34,211 nucleotides of DNA from a virus. The stretch spans positions 1 through 34,211 of IMG/VR virus record IMGVR_UViG_3300042507_006027. One strand, written 5' to 3'. A model generated the notes under the pieces. The model saw only the letters and a list, made by a program, of their open reading frames with translations, had not been told where the DNA came from and ran no database searches. Of the stretch, positions 21,244-30,838 are shown piece after piece (within the stretch, counting starts at the first letter, position 1; each line of letters begins with the position of its first letter). Both the position numbers and the translations under genes were made by a program.

Positions 21244-22128
21244 TCACGCCGCCGCCGCCAGGCTGGAGCCTTCCTGCAAGCCGTGCAGGTAGCCCGCCGC
21301 CTTTTCGGCATAGCTTGCCGCGCGGAACAGGTTGCGCGGATCATCGCGCAGCGCCTTGAGCCAGCTGGCGATATAGCTGGCATGATCCTCGCGGGGTTCA
21401 CTGGTTATCGCCAGATCAGCGCAGAGATAGGCCGCGCCCAATTCCGCAACCAATTCCTCGAAGGCATAATCAGGCGACCCAAAGACGCTGCCCTTGATCC
21501 GATCCAGCCGCTTGGCAGCGCCCGACCAATGCACTAATTCATGCGCGGCCGTGCCGTAATATGCCTCGGGAGAATCAAAACTCCCAAACTCAGGCAGGCG
21601 GATTGTATCGCTTGAGGGAGCATAGAAGGCACGGCCGCCACCGTGCGCAATGCTGGCGCCCGTGCCCGCGATCCAGGCATCCACCGCCGCCAGGCGCTGC
21701 CCATCATCCAACCGCGCCACCACAGGCCGCGCATAATATTCCGCCGGCAGGCCTTCGATTTCATCCACATTGAAAACGCGATAGGTTTTCAGGAAGGGAA
21801 TGGTTGCCTCGATTTCTTCCCCGTTGCGTTCAGCAGTCCGCTTGATTGCGCCGACAAAAAACGCAGCCTCAGACTTGGCGCCTTTCTTCACTTGCGCGCC
21901 CAGCGCTTGCGCTTGCTGATAGGTCATCCACCGCGCCGCAGTGAAGCCACGCAGCGCCGCCGCCGCCCACAGGTTCAGCACATTCGCGCCCCGATAGGGG
22001 GTGCCATCATGGCGCAGCGGACGCCCGCCGCCTTGCGCCTGCCAGCCTTGCGCCCAGGGGCGCACGCCCGCTTCGAGCATGGTGCAGATGCGCGCGGTAA
22101 CTTCCTTGTAGATAGCTTGGTTTGACAT
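21244..22128 (-). CDS. ardC: ArdC-type antirestriction protein / zincin-like peptidase
   Basis: This 294-residue protein begins MSNQAIYKEVTARICTMLEAGVRPW and contains GTPYRGANVLNLW, the N-terminal ssDNA-binding domain of ArdC-like proteins. The C-terminal part carries a zinc peptidase motif HELVH (residues 196-200, Glu197 catalytic) in TAAHELVHWSGAAKRLDR, and a downstream YAFEELVAELGAAYL that can supply the third zinc ligand. ArdC-family proteins protect incoming DNA from restriction enzymes. A strong sigma70-like promoter lies directly upstream (22177-22204), independent of the repressor-linked operon. It could be expressed in the lysogen or soon after entry. Family call is firm; antirestriction activity is inferred from the family. 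Confidence 0.88.
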   Translation of the reverse strand: MSNQAIYKEVTARICTMLEAGVRPWAQGWQAQGGGRPLRHDGTPYRGANVLNLWAAAALRGFTAARWMTYQQAQALGAQVKKGAKSEAAFFVGAIKRTAERNGEEIEATIPFLKTYRVFNVDEIEGLPAEYYARPVVARLDDGQRLAAVDAWIAGTGASIAHGGGRAFYAPSSDTIRLPEFGSFDSPEAYYGTAAHELVHWSGAAKRLDRIKGSVFGSPDYAFEELVAELGAAYLCADLAITSEPREDHASYIASWLKALRDDPRNLFRAASYAEKAAGYLHGLQEGSSLAAAA

Positions 22129-24132: not shown

Positions 24133-24162
24133 TTGACGAGGTAACCACCTGTTACCTATTGT
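24133..24162 (+). promoter_or_regulatory. Rightward promoter with embedded 19-bp operator
   Basis: TTGACG (24133-24138) and TATTGT (24157-24162) are 18 bases apart. Between and touching them lies a perfect dyad AGGTAAC-CACCT-GTTACCT (24139-24157). A repressor bound there would block RNA polymerase directly. The predicted transcription start falls at about 24169-24170, the first base of the cro ATG. Confidence 0.75.
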
Positions 24163-24541: not shown

Positions 24542-24817
24542 TGAAATCCTTTGATTTCAACGCTGTAACGCATGAAACGCAGTGCAACGCTCAGGTGTTT
24601 CATGGTTTTGGCAATGATTTCAAAGGCTTGGCGCGCATGAAACGCTTGAAACGGTTTTCCCGCGCGCATGTAATGAAATTTGGGTCAGGTGGCGCCCTGG
24701 GTGCGTTCTCTTACGCGCGCGCGTGCCGTTTCAACCGTTTCAAGCATAAAAAAGGGGATAAATTCCTTTATCTGTCTATGAAACATCTGAAACGCTTGGC
24801 CGTTTCATGGCGTTTCA
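24542..24817. repeat. Array of paired TGAAACGC octamers (candidate replication origin)
   Basis: The 430 bases between the Cro-like gene and the next gene hold no convincing gene but an ordered repeat set. A triplet lies in + orientation at 24564-24571, 24573-24580 and 24583-24590. Pairs follow at 24638/24647 (+), 24726/24735 (-), 24779/24788 (+) and 24800/24810 (-). Members are 9-10 bases apart. A dyad TGAAATC-CTTT-GATTTCA (24542-24559) starts the array. An AT-rich stretch with GATAAA-TTCC-TTTATC (24757-24772) lies between pairs, as an unwinding element would. The start of the array follows a GC-rich spacer with a CCCTGG/CCAGGG hairpin (24464-24478). It could alternatively be a regulator binding array, since TATAAA at 24828-24833 follows directly. 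Confidence 0.75.
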
Positions 24818-24848
24818 GACAGGTGAATATAAACTGGGGTATTCCGGC

Positions 24849-25346
24849 ATGACTGCCGAAAGCCCGAAGCAGCGCCACCGAGAGCGCCAGCGTGCGGAGC
24901 GCCGCGCGGTGAAGGAAGCCGCCGCGGCCGCCGCGCGGCCTGTGGTGGATCAGCCCGCCCTGGCGCCAGACCTGGCGCCGCCGCCGGCACGGATTGGACC
25001 AGGCCGCCCGGTAGGGGCTGGCAACCGCGCGACGCGCGAATGGGTGCGCGTGCTGATCGAGAAGCACGGAAGCCCCCTCGAACGGCTGCTCGAGATCGCC
25101 TCGAAGGACCTGGAAGCGCTGCGCGAGGAGCTGCGCTGCGACCGGCTGGAAGCCTTTGACCGGCAGATGACGTGCCTCAAGGAAGCGCTGCCCTACCTGC
25201 ACCAGCGCTTGCCGCAGTCAATCCAGGTGGATGGCGCGCCGCTGATGCCGGTGATGATCGCGGTTTCCGGGGCCATCGCCCAGCGCATCGGCGCGGCGGT
25301 TGAAAGCCAGCAAGATCAACGGGTTATCGAAGGTGATCCGGCATGA
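24849..25346 (+). CDS. DNA-binding protein, possible small terminase subunit
   Basis: ATG 24849 (MTAESPKQRHRERQRAERRAV) is preferred, with GGGG nine bases upstream. The frame is open to 24807 but would enter the octamer array. The 165-residue protein has a very basic N-terminus, then GRPVGAGNRATREWVRVLIEKHGSPLERLLEIAS (residues about 52-85) and LDRQ-LKEALPYLHQRLPQSIQVDG. The GRP-G-NRAT plus LPYLH-RLP pattern is shared by many putative phage small terminase subunits and related DNA-binding proteins. It precedes the primase genes rather than the large terminase (29375), so a replication role is also possible. Confidence 0.55.
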   Translation: MTAESPKQRHRERQRAERRAVKEAAAAAARPVVDQPALAPDLAPPPARIGPGRPVGAGNRATREWVRVLIEKHGSPLERLLEIASKDLEALREELRCDRLEAFDRQMTCLKEALPYLHQRLPQSIQVDGAPLMPVMIAVSGAIAQRIGAAVESQQDQRVIEGDPA

Positions 25347-25984
25347 GTTTGAACCGCAACAGTTTGAACCAGAAGCCCAAGGCCTTGAAGGCAAAGGGCT
25401 TTACGCCTGCCCGGCAGCTAATCGCCAATCAGCAGCCAAAGCCCACCCGCGCGCCCGCCCATGCCCGCCCGCCCGCACCCGCCCGCGCCCGCGCGACCCC
25501 CCCGGCCCCCCTCCCCCCCCCACCCCCCGCGCCCGCACGCGCGCCCCTGTCCGCCCCTCCGCACGGGGAGTATGGCGGAAAATCAGGTGCCCTTCGGGCG
25601 GGGGGTAGGGCGGAAAACTTCCCTGAACCTTCCCAGGGCAGGGGGCGGCAGGCCGAGCCGCTGCGCCGGCGGTGGACCGCGGAGGAAGACGCCGTAGTGC
25701 TGGCGGGGCGGCGGGCAGATCCGCCGATCAGCCTGCAAGCCATCGCGGAGCAGCTAGGCCGCAGTTCCAGCGTGGTGCGTCGGCAAGCCGTGCGGCTGGG
25801 CTGCGTGAACGGCCAGCCCGGCCTGGATACGCCCAAGCCCAACCCGCGCGTGAAGGAATGGCGCAAGCCAACCGAACCCGTTGCCGCCGTGCCGCCGCGC
25901 CGCTGCCTGCGGTGCCGCGCCGAATTCACCCCGCCCACCCGGTTTCATTTTCTGTGCGACACGCACCGGCGCGGTGACGAATGA
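25343..25984 (+). CDS. Myb/SANT-like DNA-binding protein with C-terminal zinc motif
   Basis: The 213-residue protein has a Pro/Ala-rich linker (about residues 30-75) encoded by long cytosine runs. A helix-turn-helix follows: RRRWTAEEDAVVLAGRRADPPISLQAIAEQLGRSSSVVRRQAVRLG (residues about 110-155), like Myb/SANT or GcrA-type domains. The C-terminus has CLRCRAEF-(...)-FLCDTH, a probable zinc-binding CxxC...CxxH. It overlaps genes on both sides by four bases and lies between the possible origin and the primase. It could recognise the octamers or help load the replication proteins. This is an inference from order. The low-complexity linker is prone to frameshift. Confidence 0.65.
   Translation: MSLNRNSLNQKPKALKAKGFTPARQLIANQQPKPTRAPAHARPPAPARARATPPAPLPPPPPAPARAPLSAPPHGEYGGKSGALRAGGRAENFPEPSQGRGRQAEPLRRRWTAEEDAVVLAGRRADPPISLQAIAEQLGRSSSVVRRQAVRLGCVNGQPGLDTPKPNPRVKEWRKPTEPVAAVPPRRCLRCRAEFTPPTRFHFLCDTHRRGDE
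25497..25528 (-). other. Strong G-quadruplex motif
   Basis: On the minus strand four guanine runs of 6, 9, 6 and 7 are separated by one or two bases (plus strand C7 25497-25503, C6 25506-25511, C9 25513-25521, C6 25523-25528). This meets the strictest quadruplex pattern. It lies on the template strand of the linker of the DNA-binding protein, about 480 bases before the primase. It could affect polymerase passage, and the runs are likely slippage sites. Confidence 0.7.
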
Positions 25985-27030
25985 CCCGCCGCCTGCACGA
26001 TATCCGCACCATCATTGACGGGCTGAATGCGCAGATCGAAGCGCTGTGCCGCGAATTGCTGCCCGGCGGCAAGCGCGATGGGGAGGAATGGCGCGCGGGC
26101 GATTTGGCAGGCGCACCTGGCCAAAGCGTAGGCGTGCGGCTTTCCGGCCAGCGCGTGGGGGTGTGGTGCGAATTCCATGGTGGCAGCGCCAAGGGCGATG
26201 CGCTGGACCTTGTGGCGCATTGCCGCTTTGGCGGTGACAAGTCCGAAGCGCTGCGCTGGGCGCGCGCCTGGCTTGGCCTTGGCGATGATGGCCGCGCCTT
26301 CCGCCAGGTGCGCCCGCATGTGCCGCCGCCCAAGCCACGCATGGCGGAATTGGACAATGAAGGCCGGTTGCTGAAGGCGCGGAAAATTTGGCTGGATGCC
26401 CTGCCCATCGAAGGCACGCCGGCGGCGGCCTATTTGGCCGGGCGCGGCATAGACCTGGCCAAGCTAGGCCGCGTGCCCGGCGCGCTGCGCTTTGCGCCGC
26501 GGTGCTGGAATGCGGAAGTGAACCGCGAGTTGCCGGCCATGGTGGCGGCCATCAATCGGCGCGGGGATCACGTTGCCACGCATCGCACCTGGCTGGCGGA
26601 AGTGGATGGCCGCTGGACCAAGGCCCCCTTGCGCGCGGCCAAAAAAGTGCTGGGCAGTTATCAGGGCGGCGCCATTGCGTGCTGGCGCGGTGCATCGGCC
26701 CGGCCATTGGCGCAGGCGCCAGCCGATGACCAGGTGGTGATTTGTGAGGGCATCGAAGATGCGCTGACGCTGGCGCTTCATGACCCCGCCTTGCGCGTGC
26801 TGGCAGCAATCAGCCTGAGCAACCTGGGCAATGTGCAACTGCCTGAGCAGCTTTCCGATTTGATCCTGGCCTTTGACCGGGACGGTGAAAACCCCGCCGC
26901 GCGTGCGGGCCGGGAAAGGGCAGTGCGCCAATACATGGAACAGGGCCGCAGCGTGCGTGAGGTGTTTCCGCCGCAGGGCCACAAGGATTTCAACGCCTGG
27001 CACCAGGCGCTTGGGGGGAAAGCAGCGTGA
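25981..27030 (+). CDS. Toprim primase
   Basis: The 349-residue protein would make RNA primers for phage replication. A Toprim domain is visible: VICEGIEDALTLAL with Glu256, then ILAFDRDGENPAARAGRE with Asp299 and Asp301, the metal-binding acidic residues. The N-terminal part (RLSGQRVGVWCEFHGGSAKGDALDLVAH) resembles a DUF7146-like or zinc-ribbon-derived primase domain without a complete cysteine set. It overlaps the DNA-binding gene and the helicase by four bases each. There is no DNA polymerase gene nearby, so host polymerase probably extends the primers. Confidence 0.85.
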   Translation: MTRRLHDIRTIIDGLNAQIEALCRELLPGGKRDGEEWRAGDLAGAPGQSVGVRLSGQRVGVWCEFHGGSAKGDALDLVAHCRFGGDKSEALRWARAWLGLGDDGRAFRQVRPHVPPPKPRMAELDNEGRLLKARKIWLDALPIEGTPAAAYLAGRGIDLAKLGRVPGALRFAPRCWNAEVNRELPAMVAAINRRGDHVATHRTWLAEVDGRWTKAPLRAAKKVLGSYQGGAIACWRGASARPLAQAPADDQVVICEGIEDALTLALHDPALRVLAAISLSNLGNVQLPEQLSDLILAFDRDGENPAARAGRERAVRQYMEQGRSVREVFPPQGHKDFNAWHQALGGKAA

Positions 27031-28838
27031 CAGAAGCAACACCGCGCGACGATAAGATTACGCCGATCCGCGCCGCCATGCGGAATGCGCCGGAAGCGCG
27101 GCGGAAGAATGGCGGCGGGCTATTGCCCGATGATTGCCAAGTGGTGGCCTTGGGCACTGATGGCCAGGTGAACTACTACCTGAACGCCGGCGGCATCTTC
27201 TGCGCGGTGCCGATCAAGCAGCATTCCAAGCATGTGGTGCGGGGATTATTTGCACCGAATGAAGCGTATCTGCGCAAGCACTGGCCAAAGACAAGCAAGG
27301 AAGGCACCACCACAGATTTCCGCCCGGATGATGTTGCCGGCGCGCTGATCAATGCTTGCGCGGTTGAAGGCGCCTGGTCCGGCGAAGACCGCTTGCGCGG
27401 CACGGGCGCTTGGGCCGGTGAAGATGACGACCTGGTTGTGCATCTTGGCGCCACGCTAATGACCGCAGGTGCGACGGAACGCCCCGGCGCGCGTGGCAGG
27501 TTCATCTATCCGGTGCGGCCTTCGCGGCCCGGCCCGGCGCGCGAATATCAGGCCGATGGCCCCGATGGGCCGGGCCAGGAGTTGCTGGGGTTACTCAGCC
27601 AATGGCATTGGCGCCGGCCAAACATAGACCCAATCTTGCTGACCGGCTGGATATCAGTGGCTTTTCTGTGCGGCGCGCTGCGCTGGCGCCCGCAGGGCTG
27701 GATTGCCGGGGAACGCGGCAGCGGTAAATCCACCCTCATGGGCGTGATTGCGGCGCTGCTGCATCGCGGGGATTACTGCAAGCTGGTTGCCGATGCCTCG
27801 GCCCCTTCCATCCGGGCAGCGTTGCAGCATGACGCGGTGCCGGTGCTGCATGATGAAGCCGAACCATCCGAGGAAATGGGCCGCCTGAATGCCAAGGTGG
27901 AATTGATGCGCCTGGCCGCCAGTGGCGGCTTGGTGATGCGCGCCACCACGGATCAGCAGGTGATCACGCAGGCGGCGCGCTTCATGGGCCTGTTTGCATC
28001 CGTGCTGCGCCCGCCGCTGAAAGCGCAAGACGCCAGCCGCATTGTGTTTTTGGACATGAAGCGCGTGACTTCGGGCCGCCCGCCCGTAATCAGTGAAGAC
28101 GAATTGGCGATGCTGGGGCGGCGCGTGTTCCGCCGCATGATGGACCGCTGGCACGCCTTTCAGGAAGAATTGCCGCAATGGCGGGAAGCGCTGATGGCCG
28201 CCGGCATGGATGCGCGCCAGGCTGACCAATACGGCACTTTGCTGACCGCGCAGGATGTTCTGCGCCATGACGCCAGCAGTGACAGCGACACGCGCGCGGA
28301 GCTGGTGGCGATGGTGGTGGATGCCACCCGCAGCGAACGCGCGGAAGAACGCCCGGAATGGCGCTGGTGCATTGACCACCTGACCAGCGTGTTGATGCCC
28401 GGCTACAAAAGCGGGGAACAGCGCAGCGTGGGCACGGTGATAGCCATTGCCGCCGGGCGCCAGGTGCTGGCCGATGCTGAAAGCGGAGAACCGCGCCGCC
28501 CCTTCCGTGGCGAACGCGATGACGCCAACCGCGTGCTGCAATCCATCGGGCTACGCTTTGAAGCCATGACAGTGAATGGCCGCGCCATGGATGATCCGGA
28601 CACGCATAACCCGCTGGGCTGGCTGGCCGTGGCCAATAGCCATGCAGGCCTAGCCAGCATTTTCCGGGACACGCATTGGAAGCCGCGATCCGGTGCCGCA
28701 GGCGGATGGAAAAGCGCGATTGAAAGTGCCGATGGCGCCATCCTCGGCAAGCCGCTGCGCTTCGGCGGCACCATGTCCCGCTGCACGAAAATTCCATTGG
28801 ATTTGGTTTTGGATGGGGAGAATGAAGGTGGAGAGTGA
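27027..28838 (+). CDS. Replicative ATPase/helicase-like protein
   Basis: This protein of 603 residues starts at GTG 27027 in a GTGA overlap with the primase, with GGGGGGA as ribosome site. Walker A is GERGSGKST (Gly228 to Thr236, Lys234). A downstream acidic LHDEAEPSEE is the probable Walker B region, and RIVFLDMKR may be a sensor. The N-terminal 200 residues (LPDDCQVVALGTDGQVNYYLN) resemble the domain that precedes ATPase cores in phage primase-helicase pairs. With the Toprim primase it would form the replication motor. Assignment as helicase is from motif and neighbours; a loader or other P-loop role is possible. Confidence 0.75.
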   Translation: MTEATPRDDKITPIRAAMRNAPEARRKNGGGLLPDDCQVVALGTDGQVNYYLNAGGIFCAVPIKQHSKHVVRGLFAPNEAYLRKHWPKTSKEGTTTDFRPDDVAGALINACAVEGAWSGEDRLRGTGAWAGEDDDLVVHLGATLMTAGATERPGARGRFIYPVRPSRPGPAREYQADGPDGPGQELLGLLSQWHWRRPNIDPILLTGWISVAFLCGALRWRPQGWIAGERGSGKSTLMGVIAALLHRGDYCKLVADASAPSIRAALQHDAVPVLHDEAEPSEEMGRLNAKVELMRLAASGGLVMRATTDQQVITQAARFMGLFASVLRPPLKAQDASRIVFLDMKRVTSGRPPVISEDELAMLGRRVFRRMMDRWHAFQEELPQWREALMAAGMDARQADQYGTLLTAQDVLRHDASSDSDTRAELVAMVVDATRSERAEERPEWRWCIDHLTSVLMPGYKSGEQRSVGTVIAIAAGRQVLADAESGEPRRPFRGERDDANRVLQSIGLRFEAMTVNGRAMDDPDTHNPLGWLAVANSHAGLASIFRDTHWKPRSGAAGGWKSAIESADGAILGKPLRFGGTMSRCTKIPLDLVLDGENEGGE

Positions 28839-29195: not shown

Positions 29196-29373
29196 CCGCG
29201 CCCGCCCGCGCCAGCAACCGGCGCCAATCGCGCGCCAGCATGCCCAGGCCATCCTGGCACTATGCGCCGGGGTTTTGATGTTGATCGGCGCAGCGGCATG
29301 GTCAATGCGCAGTAGTCAAGCAATGCTTGACCGCTGCCACCATTTTTCTGACACCAGTAAAATGGTCCGCTGA
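29188..29373 (+). CDS. Small single-span membrane protein
   Basis: The 61-residue product has a basic N-terminus (MTDRARPRQQPAPIARQHAQ) and one hydrophobic helix (ILALCAGVLMLIGAAAWSM), then a polar tail with HHFSDTSKMVR. It overlaps the upstream gene by eight bases and ends two bases before the terminase start. A 17-bp palindrome lies inside the gene (29315-29331). It may be another holin-like or membrane accessory protein, but position before terminase gives no firm clue. Confidence 0.55.
   Translation: MTDRARPRQQPAPIARQHAQAILALCAGVLMLIGAAAWSMRSSQAMLDRCHHFSDTSKMVR
29315..29331. other. 17-bp perfect palindrome upstream of terminase
   Basis: GTCAAGCA-A-TGCTTGAC has eight-base arms around one base. 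It lies 44 bases before the large terminase start, inside the small membrane gene. GCTTGAC also occurs at the cro promoter (24131-24137) and before the capsid leader (779-785). It may be a regulatory site; no good -10 box was found at the usual distance. Confidence 0.5.
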
Positions 29374-29374
29374 C

Positions 29375-30838
29375 ATGAACGCCGCCCTGTGGGAACCGCC
29401 CGGCCCAATCGCCCAAGCCTTCTTGGAAAATGAGCATCCGATATCGGCGCTGATGGGGCCGGTTGGTTCTGGCAAAACCACCACGGGGCTGATGCGCGCG
29501 CATGTCATGTCCTACCTTTGGCCCGCCGCGCCAGATGGGGTGCGCAAGATCAAATTCGGCGTCATCCGCCGCCTGCAAAAAGACCTTGAGAAAACCACCA
29601 TGGCAAGCTGGAACCAATGGTTCCCGCGCAATATGGGCGTATGGCGCGGCGGTGCTGGGGACCCCGCCACGCATGAATTGGCGCTGACGCACCCCGGCGA
29701 TGGCCAGCCCATCCACATGACGGTGGAATTCATCGCGCTTGGCGATCAGCGCGTGGAAGAAGCCATGCGCGGCTGGGAAGGCAGCTTTGCCTATATTGAC
29801 GAAGTGGATTTGATGCTGCCTGAAACCCTGGCTTGGGTATGGTCCCGCTGCGGGCGCTTCCCGCGTGAAACCATTGGCATCAATCCCAAGCACGCCTGGG
29901 GCACCTGCAATGCCCCGGAATTCGATAATTGGATTTTGGCTGATTTCCTGGATCAGCCGCGCGATGGCCACAAGCTATTCCGCCAGCCAGGCGGCATGGA
30001 ACCAGGCGCGGAGAACATGCGCGTGCTGCCCGCAAATTTCTATGCGGAAATGCTGAAGGTGCTGAAACCGGATGAAGCCCGGCGGATGGTGCATAACAAG
30101 CCGGGTATCAGCAAAAGCGGCACGGCGGTTTATCAGGAATTCAATGATGATATCCACATGGCGCAGGAGCCTTTGGATATTTTGGACCGCCCGCTGATCA
30201 TCGGCATGGATGCTGGCGGCACGCCGGCAGCGGGCTTTTGGCAGCGCGCGGTCAATGGCCAGTGGCGCAAGCTGGCGGAGCTTTCCACGCATGAAAAGGC
30301 GGGCGGTTCCATTACCGGCCCCAACCGCTTTGGCGAAATGCTGGCAGAGCTATTGGCCGAACGCTTCCGGGGCCTTGCCATTCGCGCCCATGCCGACCCA
30401 TCCGCCGCGCATGGCGCCGATACGCGGGCGGGCGAAGCAAGCTGGATTGATACGGTGGCGCGCGTGGCGAATATCGCGGTGCTGCCCGCGCCCACAAATG
30501 ACCCAACGCCCCGGCAGGAAGCCATGCGCCTGCCCATGACCAGGCTGATTGATGGCCGCGTGCCGGGCCTGATCATTGACCCTTCATGCACGCTGACGCG
30601 CAAGGCGCTGTCGCGCGATTACTATTTTCCGCTGGTGCGATCCGCCGGCGTGGTGCGGCAGGAAACCAAGCCCGCCAAGAATTGGGCCAGCCACCTTGTT
30701 GAAGCGGATCAATACGCGCTGCTGGATGGTGGCGCCTATCACGAAGTCATTGGCCGGGGGCAGCGCCGCGCCCAGGCCATGCGCCCCATCATGCGCGCCC
30801 CGCGCATTGATGTTTTCACCCAAAGCATGAGGAACTGA
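29375..30838 (+). CDS. terL: Terminase large subunit
   Basis: The start is ATG 29375 (MNAALWEPPGPIAQAFLENEHP), giving 487 residues; the frame is open to 29327 but only through a TTG. The ATPase domain has Walker A GPVGSGKT (residues 28-35) and Walker B FAYIDEVD (Asp142, Glu143). The C-terminal nuclease has IIGMDAGG (Asp279) and HADPSAAHG (Asp341), as in RNase H-like terminase nucleases. It pumps DNA into the procapsid through the portal and cuts concatemers. The size is close to other podovirus TerL proteins. The portal gene follows after three small genes. Confidence 0.93.
   Translation: MNAALWEPPGPIAQAFLENEHPISALMGPVGSGKTTTGLMRAHVMSYLWPAAPDGVRKIKFGVIRRLQKDLEKTTMASWNQWFPRNMGVWRGGAGDPATHELALTHPGDGQPIHMTVEFIALGDQRVEEAMRGWEGSFAYIDEVDLMLPETLAWVWSRCGRFPRETIGINPKHAWGTCNAPEFDNWILADFLDQPRDGHKLFRQPGGMEPGAENMRVLPANFYAEMLKVLKPDEARRMVHNKPGISKSGTAVYQEFNDDIHMAQEPLDILDRPLIIGMDAGGTPAAGFWQRAVNGQWRKLAELSTHEKAGGSITGPNRFGEMLAELLAERFRGLAIRAHADPSAAHGADTRAGEASWIDTVARVANIAVLPAPTNDPTPRQEAMRLPMTRLIDGRVPGLIIDPSCTLTRKALSRDYYFPLVRSAGVVRQETKPAKNWASHLVEADQYALLDGGAYHEVIGRGQRRAQAMRPIMRAPRIDVFTQSMRN

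Follow-up and report, generated by a model that had tools for sequence, protein, structure and literature searches.

The window analysed here, a stretch of viral DNA of 34,211 nucleotides, carries a dense array of short repeats at positions 24542-24848, and the question raised by this locus is what the array is for and which phage protein reads it. The ends of the contig (1-187 and 34025-34211) match with one mismatch, which indicates a circularly closed molecule, either circular or circularly permuted. The initial annotation had considered a possible replication origin, and this is still the best-supported reading, the array being conserved in relatives with its spacing kept. With a probability of about 0.77, the comparisons described below point to an array that serves a temperate, podovirus-like phage as its replication origin and that the helicase gp4 recognises through its C-terminal domain, in a SaPI/SCCmec-like manner.

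The Repeat Array and Its Gene Neighbourhood

The array of repeats (24542-24848) is confirmed and lies far beyond chance. Its best 7-mer is present in eight copies within 307 bp, against a maximum of five in 2000 dinucleotide shuffles and at most six copies of any 7-mer in other 307-bp stretches of the window; furthermore, eight of the ten TGAAACG copies of the whole window fall inside it. The eleven octamers previously described as one triplet and four pairs, with members 9-10 bp apart, are all present, namely the triplet 24564/24573/24583 (+) and the pairs 24638/24647 (+), 24726/24735 (-), 24779/24788 (+) and 24800/24810 (-). The exact octamer TGAAACGC occurs at only four of these sites, and TGAAACG is common to eight. 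A twelfth, inverted site at 24595-24602 (TGAAACAC), which belongs to the conserved layout, had been missed in that list.

The iteron-like array (plus strand) consists of four blocks, A to D, of a 7-bp word, here TGAAACG. Block A (24564-24602, +) comprises the three direct sites and the inverted one, and block B (24638-24654, +) is a direct pair, 9 bp apart. The following spacer (24655-24725) contains an alternating purine/pyrimidine CG tract (TACGCGCGCGCG), a feature found in addition to those first described, between the second and third pair if the triplet is counted as the first. Block C (24726-24742, -) is an inverted pair, again 9 bp apart, and block D (24779-24817) a direct pair followed by an inverted one. 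The AT-rich stretch noticed at the outset is real and lies between blocks C and D at about 24744-24778, where it is a candidate unwinding element.

To the left of the array lie an XRE-type repressor gene (-) and a Cro/YdaS-like gene (+). Between these divergent genes, a palindrome (AGGTAACCACCTGTTACCT, 24139-24157) is likely a repressor operator, separate from the array. Further away, an ArdC-like antirestriction protein (ArdcN and a zincin-like domain) is encoded at 21244-22128 (-). Directly downstream of the array, all on the plus strand, follow the small gene gp1 (24849-25346); gp2 (25343-25984), a Pro-rich protein with a helix-turn-helix and a Cys-rich tail, both absent from many relatives; gp3 (25981-27030), a Toprim primase (Pfam DUF7146 and Toprim_3, PHROG DNA primase); gp4 (27027-28838), a D5-like AAA+ helicase and the proposed initiator; and TerL (29327-30838, PHROG terminase large subunit). 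In the window and in relatives, gp2 contains a very C-rich, Pro-coding stretch (25490-25545 in the window).

Conserved Layout and Changing Words in Relatives

Relatives were collected by searches with the primase, the helicase and gp1, and the array was found in 120 loci, 88 of them non-redundant by gp1. The initial annotation had asked for conserved spacing in related phages, and both layout and spacing are indeed kept. In the nearest relatives (L002 and L003-L005) every block lies at the same place as in the window, and L003-L005 have TGTTACG at most sites where the window has TGAAACG. More distant relatives show the same layout with other words, while within each phage nearly all copies carry one and the same word. 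With register and strand allowed for, the 120 loci give about 43 word types; this is a low estimate, as the grouping merges some close words, and the number of words is at least about 40.

In a typical array, with block B taken as plus, block A (direct and inverted sites) is followed by B (+ +, 8-9 bp apart), the purine/pyrimidine spacer, C (- - or - - -), the AT-rich stretch, D (+ + then - -) and the start of gp1. Within the B-C interval, the longest run of alternating purines and pyrimidines has a mean length of 20 bp (85 loci); for other 70-bp stretches of these loci the mean is 6.4 bp.

Two gene orders occur. The window clade has array-gp1-gp2-primase-helicase-TerL, whereas most other relatives have primase-helicase-array-gp1-TerL; the array lies directly upstream of gp1 in both, and in all loci found. 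The earlier statement that the array precedes the primase and helicase genes consequently holds for the window clade and fails for most relatives, where the array follows both. In a third clade of three contigs, primase and helicase are present about 7 kb from the array.

The module is rare in Acetobacteraceae genomes (2/299). Loci L072 and L073 belong to prophages of Roseococcus thiosulfatophilus RB-3 and Neoroseomonas terrae LMG 31159, respectively. Among annotated phages, the searches gave no DNA match to the window and no match to gp1 of the window or of two relatives (L092 and L055); gp1 of a third, L039, gave one unannotated match. Several local variations were also seen: in L080 and L082, primase and helicase are separated by inserted genes that contain tandem repeats, each about 17 residues long (ARMSEASKRAKADPEVR-like), and an extra gene (L014:4373-4738) sits exactly between the two in one close relative only. 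A 40-kb phage-plasmid, pP18_f of Phaeobacter piscinae (L096), carries a distant relative of the primase-helicase pair, with no array in the part examined.

The Word Follows the C-Terminal Domain of gp4

When the letters of the word are set against the columns of the protein alignments in 32 loci, the association points to the helicase, and not to gp1, TerL or the primase. A natural experiment is offered by the near-identical phages L193 and L198, whose words are CACGACG and CACTACG throughout the array: identity amounts to 98% for the primase, 96% for gp1, 99% for TerL and 97% for the N-terminal part of gp4, and to 73% for its C-terminal part. In close pairs with the same word, identity of the gp4 C-terminal part is 0.93-0.99, even where that of gp1 is 0.88; in close pairs with different words it is 0.46-0.78 and always lower than in the N-terminal part. 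One pair listed as different, L208/L211, shares one word in another register, and some close pairs are copies of the same contigs, so the independent comparisons are few. The divergence is concentrated at window residues about 451-600, within the proposed DNA-reading domain (residues about 444-600; 28356-28826, +), which diverges when the word changes.

At the level of single residues, position 578 (Arg in the window, codon 28758-28760, +) gives the highest score of any gp4 column for the second letter of the word, with a z of 14.6; the next column, at 9.2, is its neighbour. Among 64 helicases, A as the second letter goes with Thr (13/13), G with Arg, Lys or His (36/39), and C mostly with Tyr or Trp. 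Because the register of the words was set partly by hand, chiefly for those outside the CACAACG-type group, this association is strong without being independent proof. A tree of the gp4 N-terminal part shows only eight countable independent changes of the second letter; in each of these contrasts residue 578 differs as well, and in five of them both ends fit the code. Shared ancestry contributes too, since high scores for word position 3 are also seen at some columns in the N-terminal part of gp4. A partial distance test on 18 divergent loci, in which word distance saturates, does not single out the C-terminal part, and the array is tied more strictly to gp1 than to gp4.

Collectively, the comparison of natural variants suggests that iteron specificity is set by the gp4 C-terminal domain. 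The covariation identifies the protein that the word follows, gp4, and does not reach to replication itself. The products of the genes at 24849 and 25343, initially proposed as binders, do not behave as the specificity factor, as the word tracks the C-terminal domain of the helicase. As a specificity factor gp1 is ruled out by L193/L198, two phages with different words. The helix-turn-helix of gp2 tracks the word in the nearest relatives, yet this domain is missing from many loci that retain the array.

These data also bear on whether the array could instead be a multi-site operator for early transcription of gp1 and the following genes, bound by a phage regulator. A gene on the same strand does start immediately after the array, and dense arrays of repressor sites occur in other phages. 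However, the covariation points to the helicase, the window has its separate repressor-type palindrome, and the word is not matched by the Cro-like protein, which differs between L003 and L005 despite their common word, all of which makes an operator very improbable.

On the origin reading, a broader picture emerges, and we regard it as fairly likely: a widespread origin module whose D5-like initiator helicase and multi-block origin would switch specificity together, frequently enough for at least 40 words to exist side by side under one fixed architecture, and with a partial recognition code (residue 578 to word position 2) readable from sequence alone.

Predicted Fold of gp4

The AlphaFold2 model of gp4, built from a 64-row alignment, has a mean pLDDT of 91.9. 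Its PDB matches include ASFV PrimPol, NrS-1, vaccinia and MPXV D5/E5 and the SaPI5 primase-helicase (7ola), with global TM values of about 0.3-0.5 that reflect the core fold only. On the basis of this model, gp4 is a predicted D5-like AAA+ helicase related to the SaPI5 primase-helicase. Residue 578 falls in a modelled beta-hairpin (strands 572-579 and 582-590), near the turn. A Pfam search (E 0.01) gave no DUF927 match in gp4, which does not place it by that domain in the SaPIbov1 Rep/Cch family.

gp1 and the Dyad That Follows It

Searches for a family or structure (Pfam, PHROG function, PDB) gave no match for gp1, and its predicted fold is of low confidence and lacks a structural match. Near its N-terminus, a fixed pattern detects a segment like EQLSLLP in 64 of the 89 proteins, compared with 3.5 expected from shuffling. 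The segment reads QLSLL or QLTFL in most relatives, and QPALA, a weak match, in the window. It resembles a beta-clamp-binding motif, as known from the plasmid initiator TrfA (PMC4980987).

This likeness to TrfA, together with the strict adjacency of array and gp1, would be consistent with an origin recognised sequence-specifically by an initiator gp1 (or gp2), which would then draw in gp4 by interaction, in the manner of lambda O and its helicase partners. Such an arrangement is nevertheless quite unlikely, since gp1 stays nearly constant across a change of word and differs between phages with a common word, and the gp2 helix-turn-helix is absent from many relatives.

The position of gp1 also has to be weighed against packaging, in which the array would be a pac or cosB-like site, gp1 a small terminase, and TerL would cut nearby, perhaps at a 15-bp dyad after gp1 (CTAATCGCCAATCAG, 25418-25432). 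In relatives the dyad has the form CTGAT-N5-ATCAG, with arms that change together (TTGAT/ATCAA, GTGAT/ATCAC, CAGAT/ATCTG), and in most loci it lies 4-100 bp downstream of gp1. In most relatives gp1 lies directly upstream of TerL, once overlapping its start; BcepC6B, the closest annotated TerL relative, has its small terminase at the place of gp1, and around TerL in the window the analysis recognised no other candidate for this role. In the window itself, however, primase and helicase separate gp1 from TerL, and the word changes while gp1 stays 96% and TerL 99% identical, a binding-site sequence that does not follow gp1. Furthermore, gp1 carries the clamp-binding-like motif and shows no detectable relation to four candidate small terminases in profile searches. 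Packaging, favoured by TerL adjacency, loses weight through L193/L198, the clamp-like motif and the lack of homology, and we consider it unlikely. Three contigs that begin 123-145 bp before the primase (L025, L026 and L029) were considered as cos ends; assembly breaks are likelier, because two of the three (L025 and L029) begin in or beside C/G-rich gp2 runs.

Proposed Course of Initiation

With the array as an origin read by gp4, the C-terminal domain of gp4 would bind the 7-bp words, and helicase rings would assemble at the two half-sites that lie on either side of the CG tract and face each other. Opening may then take place in the AT-rich stretch, with the Toprim primase gp3 priming at the presumed start of replication. 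The product of gp1, whose gene starts at the array edge, probably helps by binding the host sliding clamp. Across 32 co-oriented loci, GC skew, suggested in the initial annotation as a check for an origin, does not change at the array.

If this reading is correct, these phages offer dozens of naturally matched initiators and origins that share one architecture and differ in their words. It would become possible to test how an origin is read by a D5-like helicase, a member of the same family as poxvirus D5 and SaPI5 Rep, and whether word switching lets related phages and prophages avoid mutual interference. Across a large, uncharacterised group of phages of Acetobacteraceae and relatives, the array would mark the probable replication start, and its link to gp1 would suggest a function for an unannotated small protein.

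Comparison with Known Systems

In phage P4, the C-terminal part of the primase-helicase alpha reads short repeats, the ori/crr octamers; the P4 system differs from the present one in having one fused protein and two separate sites. The lambdoid phages, with O and its iterons, share lineage-specific iteron types with the phages described here. There, the protein encoded beside the iterons, the initiator O, sets their specificity, whereas here the small protein beside the repeats does not, gp1 being 96% identical between phages with different words. Geminivirus Rep offers a similar case of short iterons that differ between close relatives and are matched to Rep (PMC12548392), in an unrelated virus with a rolling-circle initiator.

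The closest parallels are found in staphylococcal elements. In SCCmec, the C-terminal domain of Cch2 is able, in isolation, to bind the direct repeats at the putative origin (PMC7581432); the Cch/Cch2 systems differ in having only three 5-bp iterons and another primase (CCPol-MP). The Rep proteins of SaPI5 and SaPIbov1 share with gp4 the AAA+ D5-like helicase fold, the SaPI5 structure 7ola having been found by fold search with gp4, and a C-terminal domain that recognises short repeats, a role proposed for gp4 from the covariation. The SaPI origin lies directly downstream of the helicase gene (PMC7581432), as does the array in most relatives; in the window, where it precedes gp1, it does not come after the helicase. 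In contrast to the SaPIs, the phages described here have a four-block layout with a conserved central purine/pyrimidine tract, a separate Toprim primase, a linked gp1 with a clamp-like motif, and very many words.
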